Below, piece after piece: positions 19,969 to 57,265 of a DNA stretch of 64,000 bases. A model generated the notes under the pieces. The model saw only the letters and a program-made list of their open reading frames with translations, did not search any database and was not told the origin of the DNA. A program made the translations under genes and the position numbers. The stretch is from Absidia repens (Eukaryota > Mucoromycota > Mucoromycetes > Mucorales > Cunninghamellaceae), in NCBI GenBank assembly GCA_002105175.1, contig MCGE01000039.1:310001-374000 (forward strand), read 5' to 3'. Within the stretch, counting starts at the first letter, position 1. Every line of letters starts with the position of its first letter.

Positions 19969-20079
19969 ATGAATCCGGTGCTCCGCATCATCACTTTGTT
20001 CTTAGAAAGATGCATCAACCTCTTGTTTTTTGTCTCTTCTGCTTTCTTTTATTTTATTTTCCATATCTTGACACAATGA
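19969..20079 (+). promoter_or_regulatory. Upstream ORF overlapping the lectin-HET start codon
   Basis: An ATG at 19969 opens a 36-residue frame (MNPVLRIITLFLERCINLLF and a hydrophobic tail) whose TGA at 20077-20079 overlaps the main ATG at 20076 as ATGA. This layout would favour translation coupled to reinitiation. The sister gene has an equivalent ATG at 28855 whose frame stops at 28959. In the minus-strand relative at 49534 the same ATG is ACG. Whether it lies in the mRNA depends on the unmapped transcription start. Confidence 0.4.
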
Positions 20080-23000
20080 CCCGCAACAAACCCACCCCTA
20101 TTCGGTATTATTATGATTTTTCGGGAAGCGATGAAGAAGAGGACGAAGAGTACGAGGAGGAAGAAGAAGGAGAATGTAAGAATAGTAATCGATCATCATC
20201 ATCATTTTAAACTGTGTCTAAATTTTAAATTTCTGGTTGTTTTTTTTTTATACAGTTGTGGTCACGGCATCAACACCAGTACAGCATCATCGCACTAATG
20301 CTGGTATTGTTTATGGAGTCGCAGCTGGGGTATGTGGTACTATTACGGACGGTGAATTAAAATGCTGCGAAGATCACAAGGTGGATGTCAAAGAACAAGA
20401 CGAATCTGCCGACGAATCCGATTCCGAAGCCGATACTACTGAAGATGACTCAGAAAGCGACAGTGTGGTTCATCGATATGCTCTAAATCCTAGTTTGTGG
20501 TTCTTTATTCGCTCCTTCCTGCCTGGATCAACTTTGGAAACTCCTCAAGTATTGACTGCCAATGTAGACAGACAAGGAATCCATATGGCTGCTTTGGATC
20601 GTGAAAACTGGCATGCTCAATTATGGAAATCTGTTGGTGGAACCTTCGTGAATTATGAAACCCAACTCCCTATTGTCGTGAATGGTAAGGGAAGGATGTT
20701 TATTTTATTAGTAAAAAAAAAAAACACTTAATTATATATTATGAAATACATGGATGAATCAAGGATGAACCAACTTCAACACACCCACTTTTTTTGTTAT
20801 ATGTATAATTTTAGGTTTGTCTGCAGGTGACACTGTGAAACAAGCCAATCAACAAAATCAACTTAAACAACAACTTTGTTCATTGACTATGGATGGTCAC
20901 TTTATCCATATTAGTGAACCCACGCTTGTCTTGGTACCAAAGGACAACAAAATAGTGCTCTCACATGTCGATCAAGTGCAACTTCAAGCATATCGATGGG
21001 GTTTCTTGATTCCTGAATTCACTGTCCAACATCATGCGCACGTGTTGCTTACTTGGAAGATAGCTATTTTGAAAAGATGGCGTAATATCAACGCTGGGTC
21101 TGCTACTTCTTCCCGTGTCCCAAATACCATTACTGCTGTGGCAAACTGGCCTCAAGAAACCTTTTTCATCACTGGTCCTAATGGTGATGGTTTGATACCT
21201 ACCAAGTCCGAAGCCTTATCTGGTCTTACTGTGCGTATATTGACTGTTGAAGAACACTCTGCTTTCCGCTGGTGCTTCAAAAACGGGTATCTTGTTCATG
21301 TGACTACTGGCCTTGTCTTGCATTCTCAAGGTAAATATAAAAAAATAAAAAAACGGTGAGAAGGTTTATTGGGTTCTGATTGTTTTTTACTTTTTGTCCA
21401 ATAGATTTGGCTAATGGAACTCGCTTGGAAATCCGCTCTCAACGTGTCGGAAAAGATGGTTGTGCTGATGAACGTCAACAATGGATTATCAAGACTGATG
21501 GATCTATTGTTTCTGGTACCAATAGGTTTCTTGGTTTAGGTGGCCGTGATGTCATTAAATTGGTCAACACTAAGAAATCTCGTCGACATATTTCTTGGTC
21601 TGTGTTCTATGGCCATTATGAAAAAGACGTTCTTACCCAATTCCGCCGTTATATTTTTTCCATGACCTCTCAACGAAGTAAGTTTCTTTTTTTTATTTAT
21701 TTATTACAAATTATAGGAAAAATGATGATAGGATTGAAAAAGCTAATTTTTTTCTTTCTTTTCTAGGCTTGTCTCAACACCAAGGGTCTCAACGCCAATT
21801 GGTTACCAAGACCTATGGTATCTACCCCAAGAAATGGATCTTCATTCGCTCAAAGCAAGACGCCAGCCTCGTGCTTACTACCTCCAATTCGGAGAAGGGC
21901 TCCAAATTGGTCCTTTCCAAACTCGACTTCAAGAACTACAAACAACAGCTTTGGCACACTCGTGACGATCAGTGTTTGGTGAACTTTGCTACCGATTACG
22001 TGATTGATGTTGCTGGTGGTCAACTTACCCAAGGAGCCAACCTTATCCAATGGAACGAAAAATTCTTGCGTCGTCATCGTAAGAACCAAATGTGGGGGTT
22101 ATCTGCGGATGGCCATATTCATCCTGAGTCACGATCTGGTTTGGTCGTTGCTCCCAAGAAGACCACCAAGGCTCATGATGGTGTGGAATTGTCCATTGTG
22201 GCTCGTGGAAGTTCGGATCATCTTGAGCAACAATGGACCTTTGCCACTCCTGTCTTCCGTAATCGTAGCGGTGCTGTCATCTCCATTGGTCTTACCGCAA
22301 ACAAGTCTACCACTGATATAGTTGTGGATGGTGTGGGTGAAGCCACCCAAACTCACTCTGACCGTCAAACCTACGAACGCACTGTCAAGAAAACCGTTGT
22401 ACGTCGCTGGGGCCTTTTCCCTAAAGATCCCTTCTTTATTCGTATGGGCGCTGGTTCTGATCGCTACGCTTTGACTGTGGAATCCAAGCCTATTGCTGAA
22501 AATATCAAGGAGCATCAAGTCATCCTACGACCCATGAACGTCAAGGCTCATAAATGGCAGTTGTGGATCTTCCGTGATGATCATTTGATCAATGCTGAAA
22601 CTGGATTGGCTTTGGACATTCAACGACATGGAGGGGACATTTTAATCGAAAAAGGATTGCAAGCACCTGTGTGCGTCCGTGAAGTCTCTATGGACGACAG
22701 CCAATTCTTTGCTCTCGGTGTTCATGGTGAGATCCACTTGCATTCCAATGCTCACCTGATTGTCACTGTCGCTAATAAGGAACGTCTTTCGGTCGATGGT
22801 GCCCAAATCGGTCTCAAGTCGATCAAGGTCAGCCGTGTGGTCTTTGAAAACAAGCAAGTCGATCGCTTGGAATCTGAAGAATGGATGCGCTGTGTTTTCT
22901 CTATCCCTATCTACCGCAAAACCACTACTACTACCACCACTTCATCCTCTGTGGCTGCTGGTGCCGTTGCTGGTGCTATTGCTGACGGTGAATTGGAAAG

Positions 23001-24826
23001 CTGCGAAGCTCGCAAGGTGGTTGTCCTAGAACATGACGAATCTGCCGACGAATCCGAATCCGAAGCCGAATCCGAATCCGATACCACTGAAGATGACTCA
23101 GAAAGCGACAGTGATGATGAGCTTTTGGAAACAGAAGATGATGATAAGGTAAAATATAATATTGGGAATACATTTTCTTTGAAATGCACTATTCAATTTT
23201 TTTTTTTTTTTTTTTTTTTTGGAATTTAACAGTCTTCGACCGATGCTTCAGCTTCTGACTCTGATCTCTCTAGTACAAGTGCCACTAGCTCTAAGCGCCG
23301 CTCTCGCCGTGAAGCCAAGAAAGACCCCTTTATCCTTGCTGTTGGTTACGTTCCTTCAGGATTTGAAAAGATTGTTCGATTCAAGAGCCATCAAGCTGCC
23401 TCCTTCCCTGAAACTGGCTACTTCTTCATCAAGAGTGATCTCCATGGTTATGTTTTGGATGTTGAAGGCGATGGTATTAAGGAAGGTGCCAAAATTAGTC
23501 TCGCTCGTATTCGATCGACCAACTTTGCTAGCCAACTCTGGACCTTCCGCGATGGATTCCTTGTAAATTTAAAGGATGATTCCTTAGTCCTGGATGGTTC
23601 CTCTGATATGGCTACTACCACCGGTAATCGTGTCCACTTGTCCAAGAAAAAGCCTGACGCCAGCACTGCCGATGATCAACAATGGGCCTGGGGACTGGAA
23701 GGTTGTCTCAAGACTTGCCGCTCTCTCGTCCTTTCGGTGAACGAATTGAAACGTTCTGACAAACATACTTATATCGATGTCTATGTGCAAGAAGAAAAGA
23801 TTCACCCCAATTCCAAATACCTTTGTCCTGAACAGCGTTGTGATATCATGATTCCTAGCATGATCCCCGTGTCACCCGAATTCTCCTCCGCTGGCGCCAA
23901 GATTGTTACTCCTCCTGCTAGTCACTCCAGTTCTACTGTCGTTGCTGCCACAGCTACTACAGCTGCCATTGGTGCCTTGTCTTACAAATGGTTCCACAAG
24001 TTGCATCGTCATACTAATATTACTTCTGAATGGGCTGACAACTGGTTTATGATTAGCCACGGGGAAGACAATCTGTTCTTGGCTGCTGGTACTGAAAAGC
24101 ATCATTCTGTTGGCATCCATGAGCTTGGCGAACATGATGATCATAAGCGATTCTTGTGGACCTTTGTGGACGGTCAATTGATCAACTACCGCTACATGTT
24201 GCGTTTGGTGCTTTGTCAAAAGAGTAAGTGAATGAGTACAACAACAACAACAACAACAACAAAAAAAAAAAAAAAAAGAGGAAGAGCAAGCAAACTCACC
24301 CTTTTATTTTAATAGCCCAAAAATGGATTCTTGTCGACACTAATGAAGAAAAGGATCAAGCCTTTGCTCTCGATTCTGCTGGTGTGATCACTTTACGTAG
24401 CCTCACTGTTGTTTACTATCTTCGCTTTGTCCCCTCTTCCTCTGGTGCTCATCTTTTGGAAACTACTCGGGATGTCTCTCAAGCCGGTCAACACTGGCAA
24501 TTGCATACCCCTGAATTATCTGACGAACATTCTGCTATCGAAGCCACTCAAGCTCGTACCAAGGCCCATACTTGGATTCGTGAACAACACAACACCACCA
24601 AATCTTGGACCATTACTCGCCGTCGTGCTTACTTCCCTACTTCCCCTTTGTTCTTTATCAAGATTGTTGTGAATAGTGAAGAATATGTGTTGGCACAAGA
24701 TGAAAAGAAATCTACTCTCGTCATCAAGAAGGTTTCATCCTCTTACGTCAAGCACCAATTGTGGACATGGCGCGATCAGCGGTTGGTAAATTACGGATCT
24801 TCTCAAGCTATTGGCATCTCAGGTAC

Positions 24827-24858
<32 letters not shown>

Positions 24859-25463
24859 ACACATATCGGGAGGTTCCTTAAAATAATACCTTTTTTTTTT
24901 TTTTTTTGAACAGGTACTTCTTTGGTTTTGGTTTCTGTCACCGAAGGATACACATGGAACTTGAACGTCGATGGACATATCCACAGTGAAGAAATTGATC
25001 AGGATCTTTTGGTTTTGGGTTATGCCGGAAATGAATTGCAACACAACACCACTGTCGAGCTCGTATCCGCCAAGGAACATCAATCCAAATACACCTTGAT
25101 CCAATGGAGCTTCTCTACGCCAGACTTTAGTAAACGTGACTCATCCACTGCTGCCAGTACTATAACGGACACCAAGGAACATACCCAAGCAAGTATCACC
25201 GCTTCCATTGAACAAGGCACCACTATCGATGATGCTGCTGAACAACATCACGATCATCATGCCGGTGCCAAGATTGCAGTTAATACTGCTGCTATTGCTG
25301 CTGCTGGTGCCGCCGCCGGTATTGTGCATCATCAACATCATCACACTGACAATATTATCTCTGCTTCCGACCAGAAGGTACATAAACGTTTGTATGACGG
25401 TTCTGACGGAAAGAACGAAGTGGATAAGGTTAGTAAAGACGGCATGTTGAATCAATGCGACAC

Positions 25464-25497
<34 letters not shown>

Positions 25498-27682
25498 GGA
25501 AGAACATTTACTAACTATCCAACAAAACCAACTCTTTTATTATTATTTTCGTGTCAAGCTCGACGAACAAGAGAAGAAGACACATTATTTTCATGTTCAT
25601 CGGAATCATCCGCATCACCCTCATCTTGGCGCCATTGCTGATCATGTTTCCTCAGCTGTAGGTGCTATTGCCTCAGGTATTGGCATCAAGCGTCGTCACC
25701 AAAAAACCGCCGAGACGACAGGAAGCCACGATCGGACATTACGATCACCATCATCAGCCACAGTCGCCACTTCAATCATAGCAACAACACCAGGAGTAGT
25801 ACCGGAAGTGCCACATTTTGAGATTGTTCTTGTGGATATCAAACAAGCTGCCGAGGACCGCCGCATACATTGTGAAAGGAAATGGCTGGATGAAGAAGAG
25901 CTGCACTATGTGGCACTCTCGTATCGATGGGGTGAATTGGATGAACAAATTGTGCCTGCAACAAAAGATTATTATGCACGCATCGTCTCGTTCCATCTGG
26001 ATGATTTCTTCAAGCTGTGTCAAGCGTTGCAGCATGAACCTGATTTGAAACATATCCAATACGTGTGGGTAGATGCCATTTGTGTCGACCAAGAAAATAG
26101 GGAGAAACGGAAAACCACGATTTACAACATGAACAGTATTTATATTCAAGCAGCTGCCATTGTGGCCGTCCCCGATTTACATGCCTACCATATCTCAACC
26201 ACGACTGTCGCCAACAGGGTCTTCATGGATACCATCCAAAATTATCGTCGTTATTTGTATTATTTGTTGCTGGGCAACTCCGAGGCGCAACACACGTTGG
26301 TGGAAATGGATAATGCATGGATGGATAAACTGGGAGTGCCAACCTCGGGTCCACATCGTCGCGATTTGATCCTCACCGCCACCACAGCGACAAGAACCAT
26401 GCCAACAACAGAACAGCGAAACCGTGGTATTACCAGCCAGTTTTTTACGCAACAACTGATGCCATTGATAGCAAATCCCCGTGGATCGACTGTAGATGCG
26501 CTCAAAGTCAAAGACCATGAGGACGAGGACGAGGACAACCAGGGACTGTCCAGTCGCATGTTACTGGAATGTCAACGGTTTGAATGGCAGCAACAATTGG
26601 ATCAACGACAAACGGAGATTCTTCAATCCGTTCAATTCTTGCAATCGATCATGGAAGACTGGTCCAATCGTACGTGGGTGATCAGTGAATGCCATGTCGC
26701 CAAACGCAAAACAGGCAAATTGAAATTCTGGTACAATCAACTCAGCTGTCCTGAATTAAACGGTCAACGCTTTTTTGAATTTGAATTTAAAAAAAAGGTA
26801 CGACGACCACAACGTCAGGAGCGTGAACTCAATGCGTCTTTACAGCAGCAGCAGCAGCAGCCAATGTTACATCCTTATACAAAGCAAATCATTGATTTGA
26901 CCCGCCACTTTGATGCCAGTATGCGCCGATGCCTCACCAAACGCACATTCCTTGAAATGATGTTACACACAAAGACCAGTCAAATCGAAGACAGGTTCCA
27001 TGCGATCCTTCCCTTGGCCACCAAATACAGAAGGTATATCAAGAACAGAGATAGTATTTCCGATTTAAGGGTGTCGAACATGTTTTCTGTGCGACTCAAA
27101 TTGATGGAATGGGTGGATACCAAGGATCGATTGGTACTGTTATTCAGTGAACATCAACCTACCCCGTCGGCATGCCCGTTCTTGCCCACCTATGCCACTC
27201 ATTTTAAAGCCATTCAACCAGGTCTGACGAAATTGCTCACACAGTACAAGTCTCAATGCAATTTTGATATCAATGCCGAAGAAGACGATGATGAAGATGG
27301 TAACGACAACAATACCAGCAGTGGTGGTGACGTGCGTCTTGTTCGTACTGGCAAGTTGGATGAACTCTGGCTTTGTCCTCGGATGTATTGTGAACGTCAA
27401 GTCAATCCTAATGGCACGTCGTCGTTCAGCCATCTGTGGTACGATTTGGGGATGGATCCTGCCAAAGACCCGTTGCATGCGGTATCCATTCCTCTTTTTA
27501 TTAACGACGACATCAAGGATTGCAGTACGAACCGTTTGTTGACATTGGATCTGCCGTTGCTTGGTTCCTGGGAGAAAAATATCTGGATTATATATCCATT
27601 TGATGTCAATAGCAAGGAATTTAAAATGTGCTTCATGGAAGACCAAAAGCACACGCTTCCTAAAGGGTTCTGTGTCTATTAA
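20076..27682 (+). CDS. Seven-module beta-trefoil (ricin-B-like) and HET fusion protein, intact
   Basis: Nine exons: 20076-20175, 20256-20684, 20815-21330, 21405-21677, 21767-23148, 23233-24223, 24316-24822, 24914-25428 and 25559-27682. They sum to 6837 nt, or 2278 aa, with every junction in frame. Layout: an acidic start (YYYDFSGSDEEE), a Gly/Ala-rich segment, and an Asp/Ser/Glu linker. Seven trefoil-like modules then run to about residue 1500. Each has Q-x-W lobes such as KQQLWHTRDD, KNQMWGLSADGHIH and EQQWTFATPVF, the (QxW)3 signature of ricin-B/CBM13 lectins. An Ala-rich and His-rich linker (AAIAAAGAAAGIVHHQHHH) follows. The last exon holds the HET region: YVALSYRWGEL near 1690, YVWVDAICVDQ near 1740, SNRTWVISE near 1940. 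No signal peptide is evident, so it is probably intracellular. The sensor (lectin) plus effector (HET) reading is inference. R1 copy D follows. Confidence 0.85.
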
Positions 27683-28964: not shown

Positions 28965-31900
28965 ATGACCCGCAATAAAACCGCCCCTATTCGGTATTAT
29001 TATGATTTTTCGGGAAGCGAGGAAGAAGAGGACGAAGAAGAAGGAGAATGTAAGAATAACCAGCGATCATCATCATCATTTTGAACTGTGTCTAAATTTT
29101 AAAAATTTCTGGCTGTATACAGTTGTGGTCACACCATCATCACCAGCACAGCATCACCACACTGATGCCGGTATTGTTAATGGAGTGGCAGCTGGCGTGG
29201 CTATCAAAGACCATCATGATAAGAAGACGGTAAGCCAAAATAATAAAAACTAATACAAATCCTTTACTAACCCGCACCGACCAACACACACGAAAAAAAA
29301 AAAAAATCTGTATCTAGGCAGATAATCACGACGAGACAGCTCCTATTGATACTGTGGATAATCAGGAGAAAGAAAATAAGAAGACTCAAGGTCAGCCTCA
29401 TCACACTAATACCGATACTGGAGCAACAACCTGCGGGACAGCTGGCGTGTGTGGTACTATTGTGGACGGTGATCACAAGGCGGGCGTCCAAGAACAAGAC
29501 GAATCTGCCGACGAAACCCATTCCGAAGCCGATACTACTAAAGATGACTTGAAAAGCGACAGTGATGATGACAAGGTAAATGTAATATTAGCAATACGCT
29601 TTATTTTAAACAACTATTCGCTGACTTTTCTTTTTTTTTTTTTTTTTTTTTTTTTGGAATTTTACAGTCTTTGACCGATGCTTCAGCATCTGACTCTAAT
29701 CTCTCGAGCACAAGTGCCACCAGCTCCAAGCGTCGATCTCGCCGTGCATCCAAGAAAGACCAAGACCTTGCTGCTGGTTCTGTTCCTTCCAGATCTGAAG
29801 AGAATGATCAATCCAAGACCCATCAAGCTGCCTCCTTCCCTGGTGGCTGCTTCTTCATCAAGAGTGAACTCAATGATTGTGTTTTAGAAGTTGAAGGTGA
29901 TGATACTAAGGAAGATGCCAAAATCGGTCTCGATCGTATTCGACCCAACGACTACGCTAGGCAACTCTGGTCCTTCTGCGACGGATTCCTTGTAAACTAT
30001 AAGGATGATTCGTTAGTCCTGGATGGCTCAGCTGATATGGCTACTACCGCTGGTAATCGTGTCCAATTGTCCAAGAAAAATCCTGACGCCAGCACTACCG
30101 ATTACCAGCAGTGGGGGTTGAACATGGATGGCAGCATCTACATGAAGGCTAAAAACAGCCTTCTTTTGACCGTGCAAGAAAACGAAAAAATGCCACCCCT
30201 TGTCGTTTTGTCTGAACAACACCCCAATGGTGCCAAGGAACAACGATGGAGCACTATTAAGGCCGTCTTCAAAAAACAAAAAGGTAAGCGGAGGGAAAAG
30301 TAAATCCTTTATCGGAGCGATTGAAACTCATGCTCTGTTTTTGTTTATTTTTCTGTTACTACACTCACTCCAAAGCTCCCACAATTACTGCTACTATCGA
30401 AAAAACTGTGGTTCATCGATATGTTCGAAATCCTCATGGCTGGTTCTTTATTCATTCCTTCCTTCCTGGATCGACTTTAAAAGCTCCTCAGGTATTGACT
30501 GCCAACTTAGACAGACAAGGAATCCATACGACTACTTTGGATCGTGGAAACTGGCATGCTCAATTATGGACATATGTTGGTGGAACGATCGTGAATTATG
30601 AAACCCAACTCGCTATTGTTGTGAATGGTAAGGGAAGAAATGTTTATTTTATTAATAAACCCCTCCCCCCCTTAATTAGATATTATGAAATACATGGATG
30701 AATCAAGGATGAACCCGCTTCAAGACACCCACTTTTTTTTTTTTTTTTTATATATAACTATAATTTTAGGTTTGTCTGCGGGTGAAACTGTGAAACAAGC
30801 CAATCAACAAAATCAGCTTCAACAACAACTCTGTTCATTAACTGTGGATGGTTATCTTATCCATATGAATGAACCTACTCTTGCCTTGGTGCCAAAGGAC
30901 AACACAGTAGTCCTCTCACACATCGATCAAGTGCAACGTCAAGATTATCGATGGGGGTTTTTAATCCCTGAATTCACTGTCCAACATCATGCGCACGTGT
31001 TAGTTTCGTGGAAGATTGCATCATTAAAAGAATGGCGCAATATCAGGGCTGGCTCTGCTACCTCTTCCCGTGTCCAAAATGTCTCTTCCGCTGTGGCAAA
31101 CTGGCCTCAAGAAACCTTCTTCATCACTGCTCCTAATGGTGATGCTTTGATACCTTCCAAATCCGAAGCTTTATCTGGTCTTACTGTGCGTGTATTGACT
31201 GTTGAAGAACACTCTGCTTTCCGCTGGTGCTTCAAAAACGGGTATCTTGTTCATATGACTACTGGTCTTGTCTTGCATTCTCAAGGTTAAAAAAAAAAAA
31301 AACGGTGGGAAGGTTTATTGGGTTCTGATTTTTTTTTTTTTTTTGACTTTTTGTCTAATAGATTTGGCTAAAGGAACTCGCTTAGAAGTCCGTTCTCAAC
31401 GTGTCGGAAAAGATGGTTTGGCTGATGAACGTCAACAATGGATTATGAAGACCGATGGATCTATTGTTTCTGGTACCAATAGGCGTCTTGGTTTAGGTGG
31501 TCGTGATGTCATTCAATTGGTTGACACTAAGAAATCTGATCAACATATTTCTTGGTCTGTGTTCTACGGCCATTATAAGAAAGACGTTCTTACCCAATTC
31601 CGTCGTTATATTTTTTCCATGACCTCTCACCGAAGTAAGTTTTTTTTTTTTTTTTTTTTTTCAGGAAAATGATGATAGGATTGAAAAAAAAGCTAATTTT
31701 TTTTTATTTCTTTTCTAGGCTTGTCTCAACACGAAGGGTCTCGACAGCAGTTGGTTACCAAGACCTATGGTGTCTTCCCCAAGAAATGGATTTTCATTCG
31801 CTCAAAGCAAGACGCCAGCCTTGTGCTTACTGCCTCCAACTCGGAGAAGGGTGCCAAATTGGTCCTTGCCAAACTCGACTTCAAGAACTACAAACAACAA

Positions 31901-34187
31901 CTATGGCACACTCGTGACGATCAGTGTTTGGTGAACTTTGCTACCAATTACGTGATTGATGTTTTAGGTGGTCAACTTACCCAAGGAGCCAACCTTATCC
32001 AATGGAACGAAAAATTCTTGCGTCGTCATCGTATTAACCAAATGTGGGGATTATCTGTGGATGGCCATATTCATCCTGATTCACAATCTGGTTTGGTCAT
32101 TGCTCCCAAGAAGACCGCCAAGGCTCAGGATGGTGTGGAATTGTCCATTGTGGCTCGTGGAAGTTTGGATCATCTTGAGCAACAATGGACCTTTGCCACT
32201 CCTGTCTTCCGTAACCGTAGCGGTGCTGTCATTTCCATTCATCGTGCCGAAAACATGTCTACCACTGATATTGTTGTGGATGGTGTGGCTGAAGCTCCTC
32301 AAACTCACTCTGACCGTCAAACCTACGAACGTACTGGCATTAAGAAAACCGTTACCCGTCGCTGGGGTCTCTTCCCCGAGGTTCCCTTCTTTATCCGTCT
32401 GAGCGTTGGTTCTGATCGCTACGCTTTGACTGTGGAATCCAAGCCTATTGCTGAAAATGTCAAGGTACATCAAGTCACCCTACGACCCATGAACTTCAAG
32501 GCTCATAAATGGCAGTTGTGGATCTTCCAAGATGGTCATTTGATCAATGCTGAAACTGGATTGGCTTTGGACATTCAACTACATAGCAAGGACATTTCAA
32601 TCGAAGAAGGCTTGCATGCACCTGCGTGCGTCCGTGAAGTCTCTATGGACGACAGCCAATTCTTTGCTCTCGGTGTTCATGGTGAAATCCACTTGCAATC
32701 CAATACTCGCATGGTTGTCACTGTGGCTAACGGGAGACGTGTTTCGGTCGATGGTGCCCAAATTGGTCTCAAATTGATCACCGTCTGTCGCGTGGTCTCT
32801 GAAAACAAGCAAATCGATGACTTGGTATCTGAAGAATCGATGCGCTGGGTTTTCTTTACCCCTATCTACCGCAAAACCACTACTACTACCACCACCTCTT
32901 CCTCTGTGGCTGCTGGTGCCGTTGCCGGTGCTATTGCTGACGGTGAATTGGAAAGCTGCGAAGATCACAAGATGGATGTCCAAGAACAAAACGAATCTGC
33001 CTCCGATTCCGATTCCGATTCCGAATCCGAATCCGAATCCGAATCCGATACTACTGAAAATGACTCAGAAAGCGACAGTGATGATAAGGTAAATATAATA
33101 TTGGGATTACATTTTATTTGAGATACACTATTCACTTTTTTTTTTTTTTTGGAATTTTACAGTCTTTGACCGAAGCTTCAGCTTCTGACTCTGGTCTCTC
33201 TAATACAAGTGCCGCTAGCTCTAAGCGCCGTGAAGCCAAGAAAGACCCTTTTATCCCTGCTGCTGATTATGTTCCTTCCGGATTTGAAAAGATTGTTCGA
33301 TTCAGGACCCATCAAGCTTCCTCCTTCCCTGAAACTGGCTACTTCTTCATCAAGAGTGATCTCCATGGTTATGTTTTGGATGTTGAAGGCGACGGTATTA
33401 AGGAAGATGCCAAAATCAGTCTCACTCGTATTCGATCCACCGACTTTGCTAGCCAACTCTGGACCTTCCGCGACGGATTCCTTGTGAATTCAAAGGGTGA
33501 TTCCTTAGTCCTGGATGGCTCCTCTGATATGGCTACTACCACCGGTAATCGTGTCCACTTGTCCAAGAAAAAGCCTGACGCCAGCACTGCCGATGATCAA
33601 CAATGGGCCTGGGGATTGGAAGGTTCTATCTATCTCAAGGATCACCGTTCTCTTGTCCTTTCGGTGAAGGAATTGGAACGTTCTGACAAAAATACCTATA
33701 TCGATGTCTATGTGCAAGAAGAAAAGATTCACCTCACGTCCAAGAACCCTCATCCTGAACAGCGTTGGGAAATCCTCATTCCTAGTATGATCCCCGTGTC
33801 ACCCGAACCCTCCTCCGCTGGCGCCAAGAGCGTTACCCCTCCTGCTGGTCACTCCACTTCTACCGTCGTCGCTGCCACAGCTACTGCAGGTGCTGCAGCT
33901 GCTGCTACTACTGCCATTGATGCCTTATCTTACAAGTGGTTCCACAAGTTGCATCGTCACACTAATATCACCTCTGAATGGGCCGACAACTGGTTTATGA
34001 TTAGCCACGGGGGAAACAATTTGTTCTTGGCTGCTGGTACTGAAAAGCATCATTCTGTTGGCATCCAAGAACTTGGCGAACATGATGATTATATGCAATT
34101 CTTGTGGACCTTTGTGGACGGTCAATTAATCAACTACCTCTACATGTTGCGTTTGGTGCTTTGTCAAAAGAGTAAGTGAATGAGTAC

Positions 34188-34221
<34 letters not shown>

Positions 34222-37038
34222 AGAGCAAGCAAACTCACCCTTTCCCTTCTAATAGCTCAACGATGGATTCTTGTCGACACCGATGAAGAAAAGGATCAAG
34301 GTTTTGCTCTCGATTCTGCTGGTGTGATTACTTTACGTATTCTATATGTTGTCTACTATCTTCGCTTTGTCCCCTCTTCCTCTGGTGCTCATCTTTTGGA
34401 AACTACTCAGGAAATATCTCAAGCCGGTCAACACTGGCAATTGCATACCCCTGAATTATCTGACGAACATTCCGTAATCGAAGCCACTCAAGCTCGTACC
34501 AAGGCCCATGCCTGGATTCGTGAACAACACACCACCACCACGTCTTGGACTATTACTCGAGCTTCTACTACTACAACGGATACCAAGGAACAAACTCATG
34601 CAAGCAACACCGCTTCCATTGAACAAGGCGCCGCAACCTGTATTGTACATCATCAACATCACCACGCTGACAAAATTACCTCTGCTTCCGACAAGAAGGC
34701 AAACACTGAGGTACAGAAACGTTTGGATGACAGTTCTGACGGAAAGAACGAAGTGGATAAGGTTAGTAAAGATGGCAAGTTAAACCAATGCCACAAACAC
34801 ACACACACACAAAAAAAAAAAAAAAAGTTGGAAGAGCATTTACTAACTGTCCAACAAAACCAAACCTTTTTTTTTTTTTTTTTTTGTCAAGCTCGATGAA
34901 CAAGAGAAGAAAACTCATTATTTTCATGGTCATCGGAATCATCCGCATCACCCTCATCTTGGCGCCATTGCTGATCATGTTTCCTCAGCTGTAGGTGCTC
35001 TTGCCTCTGGTTTTGGCATCAAGCGTCGCCACCAAAAAACCGCCGAGACGACAGGAAGCCACCATTTGACATTACGATCACCATCATCAGCCACAGTCGC
35101 CACTTCAATAACACCGTCACCAGGCGTCGTACCGGAAGTGCCACATTTTGAGATTGTTCTTGTGGATATCAAACAAGCTGCCGAGGACCGCCACATTCAT
35201 TGTGAAAGGAAATGGTTAAATGAAGACCCGCATTATGTGGCACTCTCGTATCGATGGGGTGAATTGGATGAACAAATTGTGCCCGCAACAAAAGATCATT
35301 ATGCACGCATTGTGTCGTTCCATCTGGATGATTTCTTCAAACTGTGTCAAGCCATGCAGCATGAACCTGATTTGAAACATATCAAATACGTGTGGGTAGA
35401 TGCCATTTGTGTGGATCAAGAAAATATCGAGAAACGGAAAGCCACGATTTACAACATGAACAGTATTTATATTCAAGCAGCTGCCATTGTCGCCGTCCCC
35501 GATTTACATGCTTCCCATATCTCCACCACGACTGCCGCCACCAAAAGGGCCCTCATGGATACCATCCAACATTATCGTCGTTATTTGTATTATTTGTTAC
35601 TAGGCACCCCCGAGGCGCAACAAACGTTGGTGGAAATGGACAATGCATGGATGGATCAACTGGGCGTACCAACCTCGGGTCCACAGCGTCGCGATTTGCT
35701 TCTCACCGCCACCACTGCGACAGCGACAGCGACAACGACCACGACAAGGGCCGTGCCAACAACAGAACTTCGAAGAAGCAACAGCCAGTTATTTACGCAA
35801 CAACTGATGACATTGATAGCAAATCCCCGTGGATCGACTGTCGATGCACTCAAAGTTAAAGACCCTGAGGACGAGGGCCAGGACCAGGACCAGCAACTGT
35901 CCAGTCGTATGATAATGCTGGAATGTCAACGGTTTGAATGGCAGCAACAATTGGATCAACGGCAAACGGACGTTCTTCAATCCGTTCAATTCTTGCAATC
36001 GATCATGGAAGACTGGTCCAATCGGACGTGGGTGATCAGCGAATGCCATGTCGCCAAACGCAAAACAGGCAAATTGAAATTCTGGTACAATCAACTCAGC
36101 TGTCCTGAATTCAACGGTCAACGCTTTTTTGAATTTGAATTTAAAAAAAGGTACGACGACCACAACGTCAGGAGCGTGAACTCAATGCGTCTTTACAGCA
36201 GCAGCAGCAGCAGCCAATATTACATCCTTATACAAAGCAAATCATTGATTTGACCCGCCACTTTGATGCCAGTATGCGCCGATGCCTCTCCAAACGCACA
36301 TTCCTTGAAATGATGTTACACACAAAGACCAGTCAAGTCGAAGACAGGTTCCATGCGATCCTTCCCTTGGCGACCAAATACAGAAGGTTTATCAAGAACA
36401 GGGATACTATTTCCAACTTAGGGGTGTCGAACATGCTTTCTGTGCGACTCCAATTGATGGAATGGGTTGATCTCAAGGATCGCTTGGTACTGTTATTCAA
36501 TGAACATCAACCGACCCCGGCGGCATGCCCGTTCTTGCCCACCTATGCCACGCATTTCAAAGCCATTCAGCCAGGTCTGACAAAATTGCTCACACAGTAC
36601 AAGTCTCAATGCAATTTTGATATCAATGCCGAAGAAGGAGAAGATGGGAACGGCAATAACAATACCAGTGGTGGTGGTAGCGGCGTGCGTCTTGTTCGTA
36701 CTGGCAAGTTAGATGAACTCTGGCTTTGTCCTCGGATGTATTGTGAACGCCAAGTCAATCCTAATGGCAAGTTGTCGTCGTTCAACCATCTGTGGCACGA
36801 TTTGGGGATGGATCCTGCGAAAGACCTGTTGCATGCGGTATCCATTCCTCTTTTTATTAATGACGACATCAAGGATTGCAGTACGAACCGTTTGTTGACA
36901 TTGGATCTGCCGTTGCTTGGTTCCTGGGAGAAAAATATCTGGATTATGTATCCATTTGATGCCAACAGCAAGGAATTTAAAATGTGCTCCATGGAAAGCC
37001 AAAAGCAGACGCTTCCTAAAGGGTTCCGTGTCTATTAA
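28965..37038 (+). pseudogene. Beta-trefoil and HET fusion gene with a frameshift in the HET region
   Basis: Eleven exons: 28965-29049, 29123-29229, 29318-29575, 29668-30283, 30376-30627, 30770-31285, 31362-31634, 31719-33088, 33163-34171, 34256-34761 and 34892-37038. They parallel the gene at 20076. The sum is 7139 nt, one short of a multiple of three. The deficit is an A7 run at 36143-36149 where the sister gene has A8 (26789-26796). As read, translation stops at 36251-36253, giving about 2117 aa that keep all trefoil modules and the three HET motifs but lose the last 262 or so residues. One extra trefoil module is present at the front (exon 4, 29668-30283), and the module before the His-rich linker is missing. 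The donor after exon 6 is GTTAAA, weaker than GTAAAT in the sister. The rest of the reading frame is clean over 7 kb, so the lesion is recent, conditional or a sequencing error. Confidence 0.8.
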
Positions 37039-41296: not shown

Positions 41297-43606
41297 TTAA
41301 TAGACTCGGAAGCCATCAGGAAGCTTGTGATTTCTATCCTCCATGGAATACATGATGGATAGTTTAAAGGCATTGGACTTGAACGGAAACATGATCCAAC
41401 AATTTTTCTTCCACGAGCCGAGTAATGGTAACTCCATTTGTTGAAGGTAGGTTCGATCGTCTTGTAGGTTAATAAAAAGCGGAATCGACACCGCCACCAA
41501 TCGATCCGCAAACGGGTCCAAGCCCAGGTCGCGCCATATACGAAGGTGACGCAGTGGGTCATTCGGCGGAATGGTGTGTAGGAATTCACAGTACATCCGA
41601 GGACGAAGCCAGAGTTCATCGAACGAGCCTGTACGAACCAGACTCACGCCACCACCGCCACCAAGATGATGGTTGTTGTTGCTACTATGACTACGACTAC
41701 TACCATCCTCATGGTCTTGATTCGAGTGGATATCAAAATTGCAGTATGCCTTGTATTTCCCCGTGAGTATACGTGGAAGATCGGTGCGGATGGCTTTGAA
41801 CTGCGTGGCATAGGTGGGCAACAGCGGTGACGCTGACGACGACATCGGTTGCCGATGACTGTATAATAAAACCAATCGGTCCTTGGTATCCAACCATTCC
41901 ATCAATTTCAGTCGCACGGAAAGCATATCGGAAATACCCCACGACGAAATACTGTGTCTGTCCTTGATATACTGTTTGTATTTGGCGGTCAACGGAATAA
42001 TCGCATGAAACCTGTCTTCCGCTTTACTGGTCTTTGTATGTAACATCATTTCAAGCACCGACCGTTTGGTGAGGCGGTGACGCATACTATATTTAAAGCC
42101 TTTGGTCGAATCAATGATCTGCATCGTATATGGATGTGTTTTCTTCAGTACGTCCAAGTCAAAAAAATGACTTCTGAGATGGCTTGCCCGGAGTGATGAT
42201 GGTTGTGTGTCAAATTTAAATTCAAAAAAACGTCGACCTTTTAATTCAGGGCAGCTGAGTTGATTGTACCAGAATTTCAATGTGCCGGTTTTGCGTTTGG
42301 CGATATGGTATTCACTGATGACCCATGCACGGTTCGACCAATCTTCCATAATGGATTGAAAGAATTGCACCGATTGAACAATGTCGTTTTGGCGTCGACC
42401 CAGTTGGTGTTGCCATTCCATCCGCTGAAGTTCCACCATCATACGACATGCCACTTGCTGGTAATAATTATAGTCTTGGTCATTATCTTTCGTCTGTGGG
42501 TCGACAACAGGCGATCGAGAACCATGGTTGTTGTTCATGATCAACGTCATCAGGGGTTCAGTAAACATAAAACTATCGGTCGTGCCTGGGGTTCCTTCCT
42601 CTGTCGTCTTATTATTATTATCATTAATTAAATCCCGACGGTACAGACCCGATGTCGGGATTCCTAAGTGATCCATCCATGCATGATCCATTATTGCCAA
42701 CGCTTTCTGCGCATCGGCTGTGCCCACCAGTAAATAATACAAATACCGACGGTACTTTTGGATCGTGTCCATGATCGCATTGTTCGCAGTGGTAGTGGTC
42801 GATAGATGGAACGCATGCAAATCAGGGACGGCGACAATGACAGTCGCATGAATGTAAATATCATTCATACGATAAATGGTGGCTTTTCGTTTTTCCATAT
42901 TTTCTTGATTCACACAAATAGCATCCACCCACACATAGTTGGTAAATTGCAAATCAGGTTCATATCGCATGGCTTGACACAGTTTAAAAAAATCATCGAG
43001 TTGGAAGGACACAATGCGTGCATGGTAGTCCTCGGTTGCCGCCACCATTTGCTCATCCAATTCGCCCCACCGATACGAGAGTGCCACATAACGTGTTTTA
43101 TCACCCAACCTTCTTTTCACGCATTGGATGGTGCGATCCTTTGCTGCTTTTTTGATATCCACAAGAACGATGTCAAAGGGTTCCAGTGAAATAGATGGTG
43201 ATGCTACAGAGGAGAAGGATGGCCTGGCTTCTTCATGCCGGTGATGACGATGTTTCTTGCTGGACGGGACTTTCCAGACATTAGTATCCTCTGCGGAAGC
43301 AGTACTACCAACTCCATCAGCCATATCAGCAGCACAAAGTCTGCTTTTGCGATATCTATGAGAATTATCAACATGATAGTTCATGGAATGACAATGAAGT
43401 TGGTTATGGGATGATGGCGATGTTAATGGTGCTGATGCATGTAGCGTCGTCCCAACTTGATAAAACCAAGAAAAGAAAAATGAGACATTCGTCCAGGGAT
43501 GATGATGATGATGATGATGATTATTCTTACCTTTTTCATTTTCTTCCTCCTCACTATCAGAAAAATCAAAATCAGTTCGTGTTTGGGTGGATGGCTTGTC
43601 GTTCAT
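41297..43606 (-). CDS. HET-domain protein, subfamily B short form
   Basis: Two exons, 43606-43531 and 43455-41297, sum to 2235 nt, or 744 aa. Exon 1 encodes the acidic start (TDFDFSDSEEEENEK) and ends in phase 1 like all subfamily B genes. The intron (GTAAGA..TCAAG) is 75 nt without stops, so unspliced reading would insert a His run. Splicing is preferred because relatives splice at the same place. It has no trefoil modules: exon 2 passes straight into the HET region. Motifs are YVALSYRWGEL near residue 145, YVWVDAICVNQ near 195 and SNRAWVISE near 395. The C-terminus is LPDGFRVY. Numbers count the spliced protein. This is the minimal gene of subfamily B and may be the ancestral or the reduced state. 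HET effector role inferred. Confidence 0.87.
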   Translation of the reverse strand: MNDKPSTQTRTDFDFSDSEEEENEKGKNNHHHHHHHPWTNVSFFFSWFYQVGTTLHASAPLTSPSSHNQLHCHSMNYHVDNSHRYRKSRLCAADMADGVGSTASAEDTNVWKVPSSKKHRHHRHEEARPSFSSVASPSISLEPFDIVLVDIKKAAKDRTIQCVKRRLGDKTRYVALSYRWGELDEQMVAATEDYHARIVSFQLDDFFKLCQAMRYEPDLQFTNYVWVDAICVNQENMEKRKATIYRMNDIYIHATVIVAVPDLHAFHLSTTTTANNAIMDTIQKYRRYLYYLLVGTADAQKALAIMDHAWMDHLGIPTSGLYRRDLINDNNNKTTEEGTPGTTDSFMFTEPLMTLIMNNNHGSRSPVVDPQTKDNDQDYNYYQQVACRMMVELQRMEWQHQLGRRQNDIVQSVQFFQSIMEDWSNRAWVISEYHIAKRKTGTLKFWYNQLSCPELKGRRFFEFKFDTQPSSLRASHLRSHFFDLDVLKKTHPYTMQIIDSTKGFKYSMRHRLTKRSVLEMMLHTKTSKAEDRFHAIIPLTAKYKQYIKDRHSISSWGISDMLSVRLKLMEWLDTKDRLVLLYSHRQPMSSSASPLLPTYATQFKAIRTDLPRILTGKYKAYCNFDIHSNQDHEDGSSRSHSSNNNHHLGGGGGVSLVRTGSFDELWLRPRMYCEFLHTIPPNDPLRHLRIWRDLGLDPFADRLVAVSIPLFINLQDDRTYLQQMELPLLGSWKKNCWIMFPFKSNAFKLSIMYSMEDRNHKLPDGFRVY

Positions 43607-44684
43607 TGTTCAGAAAATATACAAAAAAAAAAAAAAGAAGAAACAAAGAGTTTGTCTTTGTAGATATAAAGAAGATGCAGGGGCAGCGCTTTTCATTTTC
43701 AAAAACCTGTCATATGGTGTGACCGAATATAAAATGTTCTGCACCAAGAAATTTGGCACTCCATTAGGCAAGTTCTGAAAAAACAAAACGTTGAGGGATC
43801 ATCTATTGAGTATGGATCCGGAACCATTTTTAAGAAAGGGAAAAAAAAATCAATAACACGTAGATGGCGGCGTTCCACACTATGTTATCATAAGCTAGTT
43901 GATGCTTTTTAATTTCATCATCATCATGCCATCGCACTTCTAAAAAAATAATTAATAAGCAAAAAAAACTTGTCGATCACTTAGTTGCTTCTCAAACCGT
44001 CTTTTAAAAAAGTTGAAGGTTTGTACTGAAGCCATCATCAAAGTGACAAAGAATCATAATCAGTTACCAGGTACTTTACTGGAGCTAATTCAATTCAAAA
44101 TGGTCAATAATGTGATTTTTATTTGTAAACGCGAAAAATAAGGTATGTGGTATATCTAATCTACAGTTTATTAACTTTTAAATTGAGACGAAGATGAATT
44201 AAATCAAGACAGTGGTTTAATGAGCTTAGGATGGAAGAAAAAAAAATATTTGGGACGGGTAAACAATATATTGGAGATGGGCAAGATGTAATTTAGAACA
44301 TTGAAAAAAATAACTTCAGGCTGTCATAAAATAATATTGAAATCGTTGGAAATAGGTTCACGGCATGCATGGTCGCTACTGGAACATGACGGCGGAAAGA
44401 GGTGTCTATGTGTCTGCAAAGGAATAAAGGGTAAAGTAAAAAGAGGAGTGAATAGTTTCTATATCAAAAAAGTAGGCAGTCCTGCTCTTGTCCATCCCAT
44501 TTTATAATCTATGTATGCACAATATATATATATCTAACCTGCTCTAAAGTACCTGATGTCAATGCACGGCATCGTAAGTAAAAGTCTAATAGCCACATAA
44601 TTCCAATATCGTTGTTGCTCTCCCCCCCCTCCTTACCCTAGACATTTAAACTTGTAAGAAGACTAATGGTAAAAAGACAAGACA
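43607..44684. other. Upstream flank of the short HET gene
   Basis: Minus-oriented flank related to 19.2-19.97 kb in part: TTGTCCATCCCATTTTATAATC near 44488 corresponds to the reverse complement of ATTATAAAATTGGATGTAC at 19369. No gene. Confidence 0.5.
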
Positions 44685-45253: not shown

Positions 45254-48200
45254 TTAATAAACACGGAACCCTTCCGGAAGCTGTTTCTTTTTGTCTTTCA
45301 ATGAACACATCTTGGTTTCCTTGACATTGGCATCAAACGGATACATGATCCAGATATTTTTCTCCCATGAACCGAGCAACTGCAGATCCAATGCCCACAA
45401 ACTATTGTTTTTGGACTTATCCTTCGTTTCGTCATGATGGATAAAAAGAGGGATGGAGACCGCATCCAATCGGTCCTTGGTAAGATCAATGCCCAGTTCA
45501 TGCCACAGATTATGGACGGATGACTTAGCATGTGGACTGACGTGTCGTTCACAGTACATTCGAGGACGAAGCCAGAGTTCATTCAACATACCAGTCCGAA
45601 CAAGACGTACATCATCATCACCACCACTGGTATTGTTGTTGTTACCATCTTGATCATCGTCATCATCATCACTATCATCATCTTCATCGTCATCTTCTTC
45701 TGCATCCTTTTTGGTAGTGACATCAAAGTTGCATAGTGACGCATTGCCAGTGAGAAATTTCGGCAGACGCGGGGGGACGGCTTTGAAATGCGTGGCATAG
45801 GTGGGCAAGAACGGGGAGGCGGACGGTGACAATCGTTGTTCACTGAATAACAACACCAGCCGATCCTTGGTATCCGACCATTCCATCAATTTGAGCCGCA
45901 CAGAAAGCATGTCAGACACCCCCAAGTTGGAAATACTTTGTCTGTCCTTGATATAATGTTTGTATTTTTTGGCCAAAGGAATGATGGCATGGAACCTGTC
46001 TTCGACTTTACTGGCCTTTGTTTGCAACATCATTTCAAGCACGGTGCGGCTGCTGAGGCGTCGATCCATACTGGCATTAAAGTGGCTGGTCAAATCAATG
46101 ATCTGTTTCGTGTAAGGATAGGGCTGCAAATAAGAAGAACCATGGTTGATATCATGATCCCCCGTTGTTGTTCTTTTTTTTTGGGCTTTTTTAAATTTGA
46201 ATTCAAAAAATCGTTGACCATATAATTCAGGACAACTGAGTTGATTGTACCAGAATTTTAATTTGCCGGTGCGTTTTTTGGCAATATGGTATTCACTGAT
46301 CACCCAGGTACGGTTCGACCAATCTTCCATGATGGATTGCAAGAATTGAACCGACTGACAAATATCCGTTTGCCGCTGATTGAGTTGTTGCTGCCATTCA
46401 AAACGTTGGAATTCCATCATCATGCGGCTGGGGAGTGCCCGATCGTGGTGATCATTGTCTTTGACTTTCAGCGTATCCACAGTGGAAGCCGTCACACCTC
46501 CGGAGGGAATAGTCATTAATGTCATCATTTGTTGAGTAAATGACTGGCTATTGATTCCTCGGCTTCGATGATTCGTCATTGTCGTTGTAGTTGTCGTTGT
46601 TGTGGTGGTGGTGGCGCTGGCGCTGAGAATCAAATCGCGACGATCAGAATCCTCTTTTGGCATCCCCAGTTTATCCATCCATGCATGATCCATGTCCACC
46701 AACGCTTGTTGTGCCTCCGGTGTTCCCACCAATAAATAGTACAAATAACGACGATAATTTTGAATGGTGTCCATGAAAACACTGTTGGCGGCGGTATTGA
46801 TCGAGATATGATGCGCATGTAAATCAGGGACAGCGATAATGGCAGCAGCGTGGATGTAAATTTCATTCATGCGGTAAATGGTGGCTTTCCGTTTTTCCAT
46901 ATTTTCTTGATCCACACAAATGGCATCCACCCATACGTATTCGATATGTTGTAAATCAGGTTCATGTTGCATGGCTTCGCATAATTTGAAGAAATCATCG
47001 AGACGGAAGGAGACGATGCGTGCATAATAATCTTTTGTTGCGGGCACAATTTGTTCATCCAACTCACCCCATCGATAGGAGAGTGCCACATACGGGAGTG
47101 TGTCATCCAAATGCTTTTTTTCACAATAAATGTGACGTTCCTCGGCGGCTTTTTTGATATTCACAAGAACAATTTCAAAATGTGGCGGTTCCGGCGCTAC
47201 TACTGCTGTTATTAATGACGTTGATGTAGTGACTGCTGACGATGATGGGGAATCGTATAATGTTGTCTTGAGGGTTTTGTGATGGTGACGTTTAATACCA
47301 ATTCCAGTGGCAATAGCATGTACAGCTGAGGAAACATGATCTGCAATTGCGCCAAGGTGAGGGTGATGAGGATGATTACTATGACGATGAAAATAATGAC
47401 GATGGGTCTTCTTATTTTCTTGCTCTTGATTATCCACAGTATCAACAGGAGAAATTGTGTCTAGCTCCTGCTTTCGATTCAGAAATAAAAAAAAAGAATT
47501 ATTTTGTCGGGAAGTTAGTAGATGTTCTTCCAGTAGTCTCTCCCCGATTAGATTGACCAATCTTGCCGCGTTCACTCACCTTAGCGTCTTCCGTCTTCTG
47601 ATCTTCGTCATGATGCTTTGCAGCCAACGAGGAATTAAGAAGAGGCATACCTTGAGGTCGTAGATGCAGCCTAGGAAGATGTGTAGATTGAGTTCGTTGA
47701 GGTTGACTTGGCGCATATAAAATCGATGAAAATCGCTTTTGACGGCGAAGACTAGGAAGACGGTTAACAGTAGGACGGTTAAGAGTAGGATTCTTCTCAT
47801 TTTCTTGTTCATGATCATCCTCATCATCAGGAAAAGGAGGAAGAGGAGGAAGAGAAATATTAAGAAGAGAGTCATTAATAAAACAAGTATTAAGATGAGT
47901 TGTTCTGTCTTCCTCGTCCGACTTTACGAACAAAAAAACAAAAAAAAGGAGTTTGCTGACGGTTAATAAATGCTTTTTTTTTTTGTCGCAATGGACATCC
48001 CTTTTCCATCTTTACTCACCTCGATGTCTTCCGTCTTATTGTCTTCATCATGATGTTTTTTTAAGGCAATACCACCAGCGTTTACTCCAATATGTTGGTG
48101 AGAATTTTCTGTCTTCTCTTCATGTCCACCCAAAGTATCAATTGGCGATGTCAGCTTTTGTTCGTCCATCTTAAAAGAAAAACGAAAGAAAAGGTTGGTT

Positions 48201-49379
48201 GTGTAGGCAGTTAGTGGAAGCTCTTCAACTTTTTTTTTTTTAGTCGCACTGGGTATCCCTTTCCATCGATACTCACCTCGACGTCTTCCGCCTTATTGAC
48301 TTCATCATGATGTTTTTTTAACATCACAGCCCCAGCGCCAGGACTTGCTCCAAATAACACACCACTAGAGGGATGCTCGATTTTTTCGACATGTTCGTGA
48401 ATAGTACCAGATGAGGTTTTGTCGATCTCATCTGTTTCATCTTCACTAACCGTTACACATTCATGCACCATTGGAATAGAAACGTCGTGTTCAGCATTGA
48501 GTTCAGCTTGGGTCGTTTCGTTAGCAGCGCAACCCTTGGAGCCATTGTCGAGTTCAGCATTGAGTTCAGCATTGGCCTTTTCGTTATCAGTCCATTCCTT
48601 GGAGTCTTTGACTATCTCAGGCAATTTTTCATGAGTGCCCAAGGTAATATGTACAATATCAGACTTGCCATCTTCACCATCACGTTGTATGCGCTCGTGA
48701 GTACGGTTGTGGAAAGAAATGAACCATCCATGCACCTTCTCTTTGACCTCTTCCGTCGGTAGAGAGCTCGTACCACTGGCAATAGGAACTGTGGAATGAT
48801 GGCCTTGAGTCTCTTCCTTTTGATTATCCATAGTATCAACGGGAGATGTCTTGTCTTGTTCATCCAACTTGATAAGAAAAAAAAAAACAATTTCAATTTC
48901 GTTAAGCGGTTAATGGATGCGCTCCTTCATTTCCAATGATTATTATTTTGTCGCATTGGGATTCATTTGCTGCGTTCACTCACCTTAGATTCTTCCATCT
49001 TGTCTTCATCAGGCTTGTGTTCATGTTCCAAAGCAATAGCACCAACATCAGCAGCGACACAGGTAGAACCAAATGCGACCTTGTCAATGTTCTCCTTTTC
49101 TTGCTCTTGATCAACGGGAGATGTCTCATCTTGATGATCAGGCTGGGAGTTTGTGTGTTGGTCGGTCAGGTTAGTCGAGAAAGTTGATATTTAATTTCAT
49201 TATTATTATTTTGGCTTACCGTCTTGTCATCATGATGTTTCTTGGCAGCGGCAATACCAGTAACCACGTCAGTGACAATAGCGTTATGCTGGGAAGACGG
49301 TGATGGCGGTGGTGATGATGATAGTAGTGTCACCGCATCTAGATAAAAAATAACAACCATCAATTAGACACACTCACCA

Positions 49380-49414
<35 letters not shown>

Positions 49415-49534
49415 GATGATGATCTCCATCCGATGATGGTTACTCTTACATTCTTCTTCTTCATCCTCCTCCTCTTCCTCGCTGTCCGTAAAATCATAAT
49501 CGAAATATGCAGGGACAATTGTCTTGTGGTTCAT
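45254..49534 (-). CDS. HET-domain protein, subfamily B, with a duplicated phase-0 exon array
   Basis: Seven exons on the minus strand: 49534-49450, 49338-49220, 49142-48984, 48867-48277, 48169-48020, 47921-47580 and 47470-45254. They sum to 3663 nt, or 1220 aa, with all junctions in frame. The acidic start is YDFTDSEEEEEDEEEE. Exons 3 to 6 all begin and end in phase 0. Most open with a D-E-Q-x-x-T-S-P-(V/I)-D-T motif and close with K-K-H-H-D-E-x-x-K-x-E-D-(V/I)-E after a Gly/Ala-rich hydrophobic stretch. The last exon repeats the opening motif (QELDTISPVDTVDNQEQENK), then a His-rich block, then the HET region: YVALSYRWGEL near 615, YVWVDAICVDQ near 665, SNRTWVISE near 875. A Thr run and an Asp run are encoded by triplet repeats. 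It ends LPEGFRVY. It has no trefoil modules. The role is inferred as for its relatives; the repeat array may be a flexible or assembly region. Confidence 0.86.
49379..49430. repeat. ATG/CAT microsatellite in intron 1 of the HET gene
   Basis: About 14 ATG triplets with one AAG interruption. The equivalent first introns at 43499-43522 (ATG), 20195-20207 and 29069-29082 (ATC) carry the same triplet in other lengths, so intron 1 of subfamily B is a shared microsatellite. Confidence 0.8.
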
Positions 49535-57204: not shown

Positions 57205-57265
57205 TACGGTCAGTGGTTTAGCTTAGTGTTAGTTACCATAGTTTATATATCAATATATGAATAAA
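57205..57265 (+). repeat. R1 dispersed repeat, copy K (3' tail)
   Basis: GGTTTAGCTTAGTGTTAGTT, CCATAGTTTATATATC and TATGAATAAAATAGGG match the last 60 bp of R1. In sense orientation downstream of the F-box gene ending at 56539. Confidence 0.65.

Follow-up and report, generated by a model that had tools for sequence, protein, structure and literature searches.

The stretch analysed here (the window), 64,000 nucleotides at positions 310001-374000 of contig C33 of the soil mould Absidia repens, contains a gene, hereafter copy 1, in which seven beta-trefoil modules resembling those of the protein Gellin are followed by a C-terminal HET domain. Splicing of nine exons gave 2278 stop-free codons, and the anatomy of trefoils and HET domain, as read from the DNA, is well supported. 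The initial annotation of the window had proposed nine exons of about 2278 codons, seven trefoil modules, and a C-terminal HET region in a mucoralean fungus, all of which was confirmed by splicing, Pfam searches, and module alignment, and by the letter-for-letter identity of an A. repens protein, P0001, with the spliced product of a tandem copy (copy 2). Pfam profiles detected both Ricin_B_lectin (2.4e-17) and HET (3.9e-13) over their cut-offs, the latter (PF06985) scoring 50.4 bits against a curated cut-off of 22.5. The parts of copy 1 are given below, with the trefoils (Gll) numbered after a ten-trefoil giant of A. repens encoded on contig C44.

20076..27682, forward strand: Gellin-HET gene copy 1, nine exons, 2278 amino acids
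20076..20175, forward strand: exon 1, acidic leader beginning MTRNKPTPIRYYYDFSGSDEEE
20486..21095, forward strand: trefoil 1, Gll4, 80% identity to Gll4 of the C44 giant
21147..21783, forward strand: trefoil 2, Gll5, 86% identity to the C44 module
21823..22326, forward strand: trefoil 3, Gll6, 89% identity to the C44 module
22417..22971, forward strand: trefoil 4, Gll7, 86% identity to the C44 module
23404..23937, forward strand: trefoil 5, Gll8, 82% identity to the C44 module
24031..24593, forward strand: trefoil 6, Gll9, 94% identity to the C44 module
24633..25203, forward strand: trefoil 7, Gll10, 88% identity to the C44 module
25273..25329, forward strand: hydrophobic segment IAVNTAAIAAAGAAAGIVH, top 19-residue score, mean Kyte-Doolittle 1.57
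25429..25558, forward strand: intron 8, between the Gellin-derived block and the HET exon, position identical in copy 2
25559..27682, forward strand: exon 9, the HET exon, with the Pfam HET core at about 25907-26170, LSYRWG at 25916, and WVDAICVDQ at 26066
25631..25687, forward strand: second hydrophobic segment AIADHVSSAVGAIASGIGI, mean Kyte-Doolittle 1.32, kept in P0002 and copy 2
26687..26689, forward strand: codon of Glu1948, in RTWVISE

Exon 1 is taken as the N-terminus of the recipient HET gene itself. DFSD-type leaders are also present in HET proteins that the Gellin profile does not match, and the leader of copy 1 resembles those of P0036, P0030, and a HET gene at 41297-43609 of the window, all without such a match, which suggests that the Gellin block sits between the leader and the HET exon of the recipient. 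None of the eight most hydrophobic 19-residue segments falls within the first 49 residues (the eighth lies at 50-68) and, the leader being acidic, nothing there suggests a signal peptide; secretion and sugar sensing are thus disfavoured. The two strongest hydrophobic segments sit either side of the HET junction, with modest scores, and the first, IAVNTAAIAAAGAAAGIVH, which corresponds to the segment behind Gll10 of the C44 protein, may possibly contact a membrane.

The modules of copy 1 pair one-to-one and in the same order with Gll4-Gll10 of the C44 giant (80-94% identity), and Gll6-7 were only 42-48% identical to those of 18 giants from other genera. The donor-type gene is as follows.

Contig C44, 57956-35079, reverse strand: Gellin-type giant of A. 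repens itself, ten Gll modules followed by tail repeats

The gene model at C44 comprises the first 11 exons (2178 residues, stop-free), with the ten Gll modules and the first tail repeat, which shares an exon with the end of Gll10. Thirteen near-identical tail repeats stand behind the ten trefoils, twelve of them beyond the spliced model, versus two to six tail profile matches in each of five of the 28 family relatives discussed below; the open frames of copy 1 contained no tail profile match. All six introns within the Gellin block of copy 1 agree with C44 in column and phase, and six introns of copy 2, from just before Gll4 into Gll9, agree too (two more, by the leader and the first trefoil, could not be matched by column), an agreement that is partly guided because the C44 splice sites were chosen by copy 1-like context and open frame. 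The simplest reading is that Absidia Gellin genomic DNA, introns included, entered a HET gene.

The database relatives of the giant P0004 numbered 28, counting P0004 itself, with HET among the precomputed domains of P0001 alone. A profile of the ten C44 modules detected exactly ten segments in 16 of the 28, and three to nine in the other 12, which include partial proteins, Mortierella-type relatives, and P0001 (seven); no A. repens protein equal to the C44 giant was among these matches. The protein searches scored candidates at 0.55-1.75 times the query length that shared most words, a range from which split or longer Gellin-HET proteins may escape. Four of the five Mortierella-type relatives P0025-P0029 (P0025, P0026, P0028, and P0029) carried a WGR domain (PF05406) joined to Gellin-like arrays.

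The N-terminal domain of this giant ricin-type family of the Mucorales matched PDB 6lci, 'mdaA-1' (E 2e-99), an entry that presumably stems from the Gellin work of Nguyen et al. 2021, and its release in November 2020 fits that origin. Gellin, in that work, reportedly has ten trefoil Gll domains, some of which unfold under flow and some of which bind membranes, and its loss is said to cause bleeding. Each fusion copy has seven Gll modules versus ten in Gellin, a number that agrees with the 16 of 28 relatives. We identify the ten-trefoil giants of the Mucorales as Gellin, an intracellular wound-gelation protein. According to one article, Mucorales Gellins gel the protoplasm once activated by disturbance (PMC12712441, citing Nguyen et al. 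2021).

Structure prediction with AlphaFold, which the initial annotation had proposed as a check, returned a trefoil fold for Gll6-7 of copy 1, at a mean predicted local distance difference test (pLDDT) score of 81.9 and a predicted template modelling score of 0.50, with the mutual placement of the two modules uncertain; lectins were among the structural neighbours. Copy 1 has 11 Q-x-W motifs for 21 lobes, leaving about half of the lobes without one, and lacks the complete (QxW)3 signature of R-type lectins.

Downstream of copy 1 lies its tandem copy, whose far end was placed by resemblance to copy 1.

28965..37038, forward strand: tandem copy 2 (P0001, BCR42DRAFT_160251), leader, apparent Gll8/Gll3 hybrid trefoil, Gll4-Gll9, and HET

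The HET exon of copy 2 shows a frame change, either real or a sequencing slip, at an A run behind the conserved Glu, which is why the annotated P0001 stops at 36253. The regions upstream of the two copies are 87% alike over 1310 columns. Copy 2 has the extra hybrid and lacks Gll10, copy 1 has Gll10 and lacks the hybrid, and the leader region of copy 1 retains a portion of the Gll7-Gll8 linker. It looks as though the hybrid and Gll10 coexisted in an ancestor and one of them was lost in each copy.

Whether the trefoils and the HET domain belong to one protein was approached from several sides. P0001, the spliced copy 2, stands in the database as a single annotated protein for which both ricin and HET domains are precomputed; a single uninterrupted frame of 949 codons at C26:432738-435584 contains a Gellin tail and HET; and P0002 of A. 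cylindrospora has a Gellin tail and HET within one annotated protein. The HET frames of both tandem copies lack a Met ahead of the HET core (in copy 1, HET begins at frame residue 122, with LSYRWG, and the first Met is at 226; in copy 2, these are 100 and 169), so that the start must come from an upstream exon. A Met before the core is also absent from the minus-strand HET gene at 45254 and from two of the four HET frames with Gellin neighbours on C26. The remaining pair there consists of a frame whose Met lies within its Gellin tail and of C26:450594-452783, which has a Met 95 residues before HET and could start alone. As a control, the window frames 1446-2744 and 5254-6027, which have HET but no Gellin, were likewise devoid of Met there, so the start-codon test shows the need for an upstream exon and not which one. 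A reading as two genes, which gains something from the unusual acceptor of intron 8, from these start-codon observations, and from the fusion being read here from DNA, was judged unlikely on the P0001 annotation, the C26 frame, P0002, and the start codons, the last argument being weaker than it looks.

The 47.4-Mb genome was searched with Gll4-10, the tail, and the P0002 N-terminus as queries, and the best candidates were scored, so that the following counts are lower bounds. Outside C44, and with HET-side and leader matches set aside, Gellin matches fell at seven loci, three of them on C33 (copies 1 and 2 and a locus with tail) and four on C26 (one with Gll10 and three with tail). At all seven, the nearest Gellin segment lay at most 0.7 kb upstream of a HET frame or inside it. 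Covalent fusion follows from the single frame at one C26 locus and, for copies 1 and 2, from splicing or annotation; at the remaining four it is presumed from neighbourhood. The C26 cluster (C26:432738-454941) comprises four HET genes: in one the Gellin segment is Gll10 only, and in three it is tail, one of these three sharing a single frame with HET; the other three genes are linked to Gellin by neighbourhood. On the opposite strand of the window, past the trefoil-HET pair, lies a second kind of Gellin-HET gene, with a tail repeat, together with a leader-bearing relative:

45254..49534, reverse strand: HET gene with an upstream Gellin tail repeat (48214-48909) and no trefoils, putative ATG at 49534, exons partly modelled
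41297..43609, reverse strand: HET gene with a DFSDSEEEE leader and no Gellin segment detected, sister to the Gellin-HET clade

A HET tree of 91 rows (90 different) placed the nine Gellin-bearing rows (eight genes) inside one ten-row group with a support of 100 in the Shimodaira-Hasegawa-like approximate likelihood ratio test (SH-aLRT); the tenth row, C14:428769-431288, has no profile-detectable Gellin segment. The Gellin label required 2 changes on this tree, and none of 500 shuffles was equally low, on a quick tree with SH-aLRT support only and with tandem near-copies favouring label clustering. The seven loci are relatives and not seven independent events, and copy 1 does not stand alone but is one of a clade of HET genes bearing pieces of Gellin. 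P0002 grouped with copies 1 and 2 (support 99), which is most simply explained by a fusion older than the divergence of A. repens and A. cylindrospora.

The HET family of A. repens is very large: at least 150 frames, scored from among 171 candidates, all pass the Pfam cut-off; 31 of the 150, by our count, lie on C33, seven of them within the window. Apart from copies 1 and 2, HET frames of the window lie at:

1446-2744, reverse strand: Pfam HET
5254-7384, forward strand: Pfam HET
15985-18145, forward strand: Pfam HET
41297-43609, reverse strand: Pfam HET
45254-47575, reverse strand: Pfam HET

In an alignment of 62 HET rows, S53, Y54, W56, G57, W102, and D104 were invariant, and Glu1948 of copy 1 (E309 in that numbering) was present in 61 of the 62, with a gap in the remaining one; the HET blocks SYxWG, WxD, and RxWxxxE are thereby conserved in copy 1. 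Its context, RTWVISE, resembles the WxxxE context of SARM1, and Glu1948 is a candidate counterpart of the TIR catalytic Glu. The AlphaFold model of the HET exon (mean pLDDT 85.7) had TIR/deoxyribosyltransferase folds as its best structural matches, all weak; Foldseek with this model gave no significant match, and the link to TIR comes from a second-look structural list and the motif context. Sequence searches of the PDB with the HET exon returned nothing meaningful (best E 0.13 and 1.8), and an anti-phage defence library detected no families in the HET part or in exon 5. No NACHT or NB-ARC Pfam family was found in copy 1 up to E 10, and identity as a NOD-like receptor (NLR) was rejected.

Selection was gauged by omega (Nei-Gojobori, with bootstrap range), values that gene conversion between the copies could skew. 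Between copies 1 and 2, omega was 0.464 (0.371-0.585) for Gll4-9 over 1213 codons and 0.336 (0.218-0.564) for the HET exon ahead of the frame change over 408 codons; between copy 1 and C44, it was 0.263 (0.217-0.320) for Gll4-10 over 1441 codons. Individual segments ranged from 0.25 to 0.68 between the copies, and none exceeded 1. Neutral simulation of the block, run 1000 times at each of three distances, introduced 13 to 23 stops on average and never left the block stop-free. The trefoils and the HET half are both under purifying selection between the copies and, since no neutral run stayed stop-free, the trefoils have been maintained within the fusion.

TIR-type domains are activated by clustering. 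Our preferred reading, held tentatively and at somewhat less than an even chance, is that copy 1 encodes an intracellular chimera of Gellin and HET whose death domain would be clustered as the gel assembles. A leader-bearing HET gene would have acquired a long stretch of the Gellin gene of the same fungus, of which copy 1 now carries Gll4-Gll10. Upon wounding of a hypha, flow would unfold Gll domains, which would adhere to one another and bind to membranes; through its Gll block, the chimera would enter the growing gel or join Gellin itself, so that the attached HET domains become crowded. Crowding would activate HET, with its predicted TIR-like, nicotinamide adenine dinucleotide-consuming fold, and, where a wound has failed or been invaded, the protoplasm would thus be killed and sealed off. 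Family knowledge is the source here for gelation, membrane binding, and death activity, and the activation of HET by gel assembly is something we purely infer. Flow-driven assembly, as reported for Gellin, combined with clustering-activated TIR domains would predict that the death domain fires where gel forms. The stronger form of this proposal, a wound-gel-triggered death switch of the coenocytic Mucorales in which mechanical gelation of the protoplasm clusters and activates the TIR-like domain, making the protein a mechanosensitive cell-death receptor, we consider rather unlikely; to our knowledge, such a receptor has no counterpart. The main weakness of the chimera reading is the existence of paralogues with only a tail or Gll10, which weigh against it; Gellin might still recruit these, or they might be decoys.

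As to the kind of death programme, HET domains of ascomycetes trigger cell death (PMC10197012). PMC4133162 describes the Mucorales as forming no heterokaryons via somatic fusion, which makes incompatibility of the ascomycete type an unlikely purpose of HET here.

The main rival starts from those same paralogues. Plant immune receptors that carry integrated copies of effector targets work as decoys, and the Gellin piece may similarly be a bait, touched by parasites, viruses, or bacteria that disable Gellin and thereby tripping HET. The different Gellin pieces kept by the paralogues (Gll4-10; hybrid plus Gll4-9; Gll10 alone; tail alone) suit a bait better than a whole machine, the size of the HET family is in keeping with it, and omega between the copies exceeds that between copy 1 and Gellin (0.46 vs 0.26). 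Omega was, however, above 1 in no segment, and no effector or virus is known to us that targets Gellin, a point on which no search was made; we regard an integrated decoy as an unlikely, though serious, explanation. It is improbable that one half no longer matters, the chimera being a passenger or serving the gel in a structural role only: modules have been lost and gained between the tandem copies, and copy 2 changes frame past the conserved Glu, but both halves show purifying selection and the simulated blocks did not stay free of stops.

The initial annotation had seen a lectin-sensing receptor of immune type. Its immune or recognition flavour stands; a role of the trefoils as carbohydrate sensors is not supported, these being copies of Gll4-Gll10 of a giant that we identify as an intracellular gelation protein, behind an N-terminus that is not signal-peptide-like. 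A receptor whose trefoils bind sugars and whose HET responds is retained as a minor and quite improbable rival, in view of the ricin-type Pfam matches, the trefoil fold with lectins among its neighbours, and the Q-x-W motifs that persist, although about half of the lobes have none. That two adjacent genes or an assembly join mimic a fusion is very improbable, given P0001, P0002, the C26 frame, and the start codons.

Compared with known systems, copy 1 resembles Gellin in that its trefoils are those of the A. repens member, Gll4 to Gll10 in sequence and with introns in common, and differs from it in lacking Gll1-3 and the tail repeats and in having a HET-family leader and a C-terminal HET. Its leader and HET exon fall among the HET proteins (PF06985) of Absidia, Chlamydoabsidia, Halteromyces, and Cunninghamella, with conserved core motifs; in a search limited to 0.55-1.75 of a 707-residue query, 82 of the 83 relatives listed (439-857 residues) had PF06985 alone, P0112 also having PF26639, whereas copy 1 adds some 1400 residues of Gellin-derived sequence. 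P0001 shares the architecture, differing by its extra hybrid trefoil at the front, its lack of Gll10, and its shortened annotated C-terminus. P0002 (1282 residues) has the same leader and, among HET domains from other species, the one nearest on the tree but, unlike copy 1, has Gellin tail segments between leader and HET and no trefoil match. The plant receptors with integrated decoys likewise build a piece of a cellular protein into a death-signalling protein; copy 1 lacks a known effector and a nucleotide-binding switch. Ascomycete HET-NLRs (HET-E/HET-D, HET-NACHT-WD40; PMC10197012) also join HET to a repeated sensor-like block; copy 1 differs in having no NACHT or NB-ARC match, a C-terminal HET, and a block derived from a structural protein.

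Elsewhere in the window, judged by eye, several open frames at 52482-61018 look like F-box/leucine-rich-repeat proteins, two frames at 8190-9452 look like an aldo/keto reductase gene, and a reverse-strand frame at 11821-12505 (LLALQETHT) looks like an endonuclease of the long interspersed nuclear element type.

HET proteins of the Mucorales, Gellin, and the presence of both domain types in the P0001 database entry were already known, with 52 HET proteins in one family of Lichtheimia corymbifera (PMC4133162) and HET proteins in Apophysomyces (PMC5604411). The architecture, which the initial annotation had thought unusual, proved so: no Gellin-HET or ricin-HET fusion was found in the open-licence PMC literature, among the matches listed. 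As far as these searches reach, what is new is a HET protein with an accessory block found in no described HET protein. The Gellin-HET family offers a clue to what some HET proteins may watch, namely a wound-sealing protein of their own cell. The series of recipient HET gene, donor Gellin, tandem fusions, paralogue fragments, and a relative in a second species traces how an immune-type protein may be made from a structural one, and it opens a direct question, whether gel assembly could switch on a HET domain.

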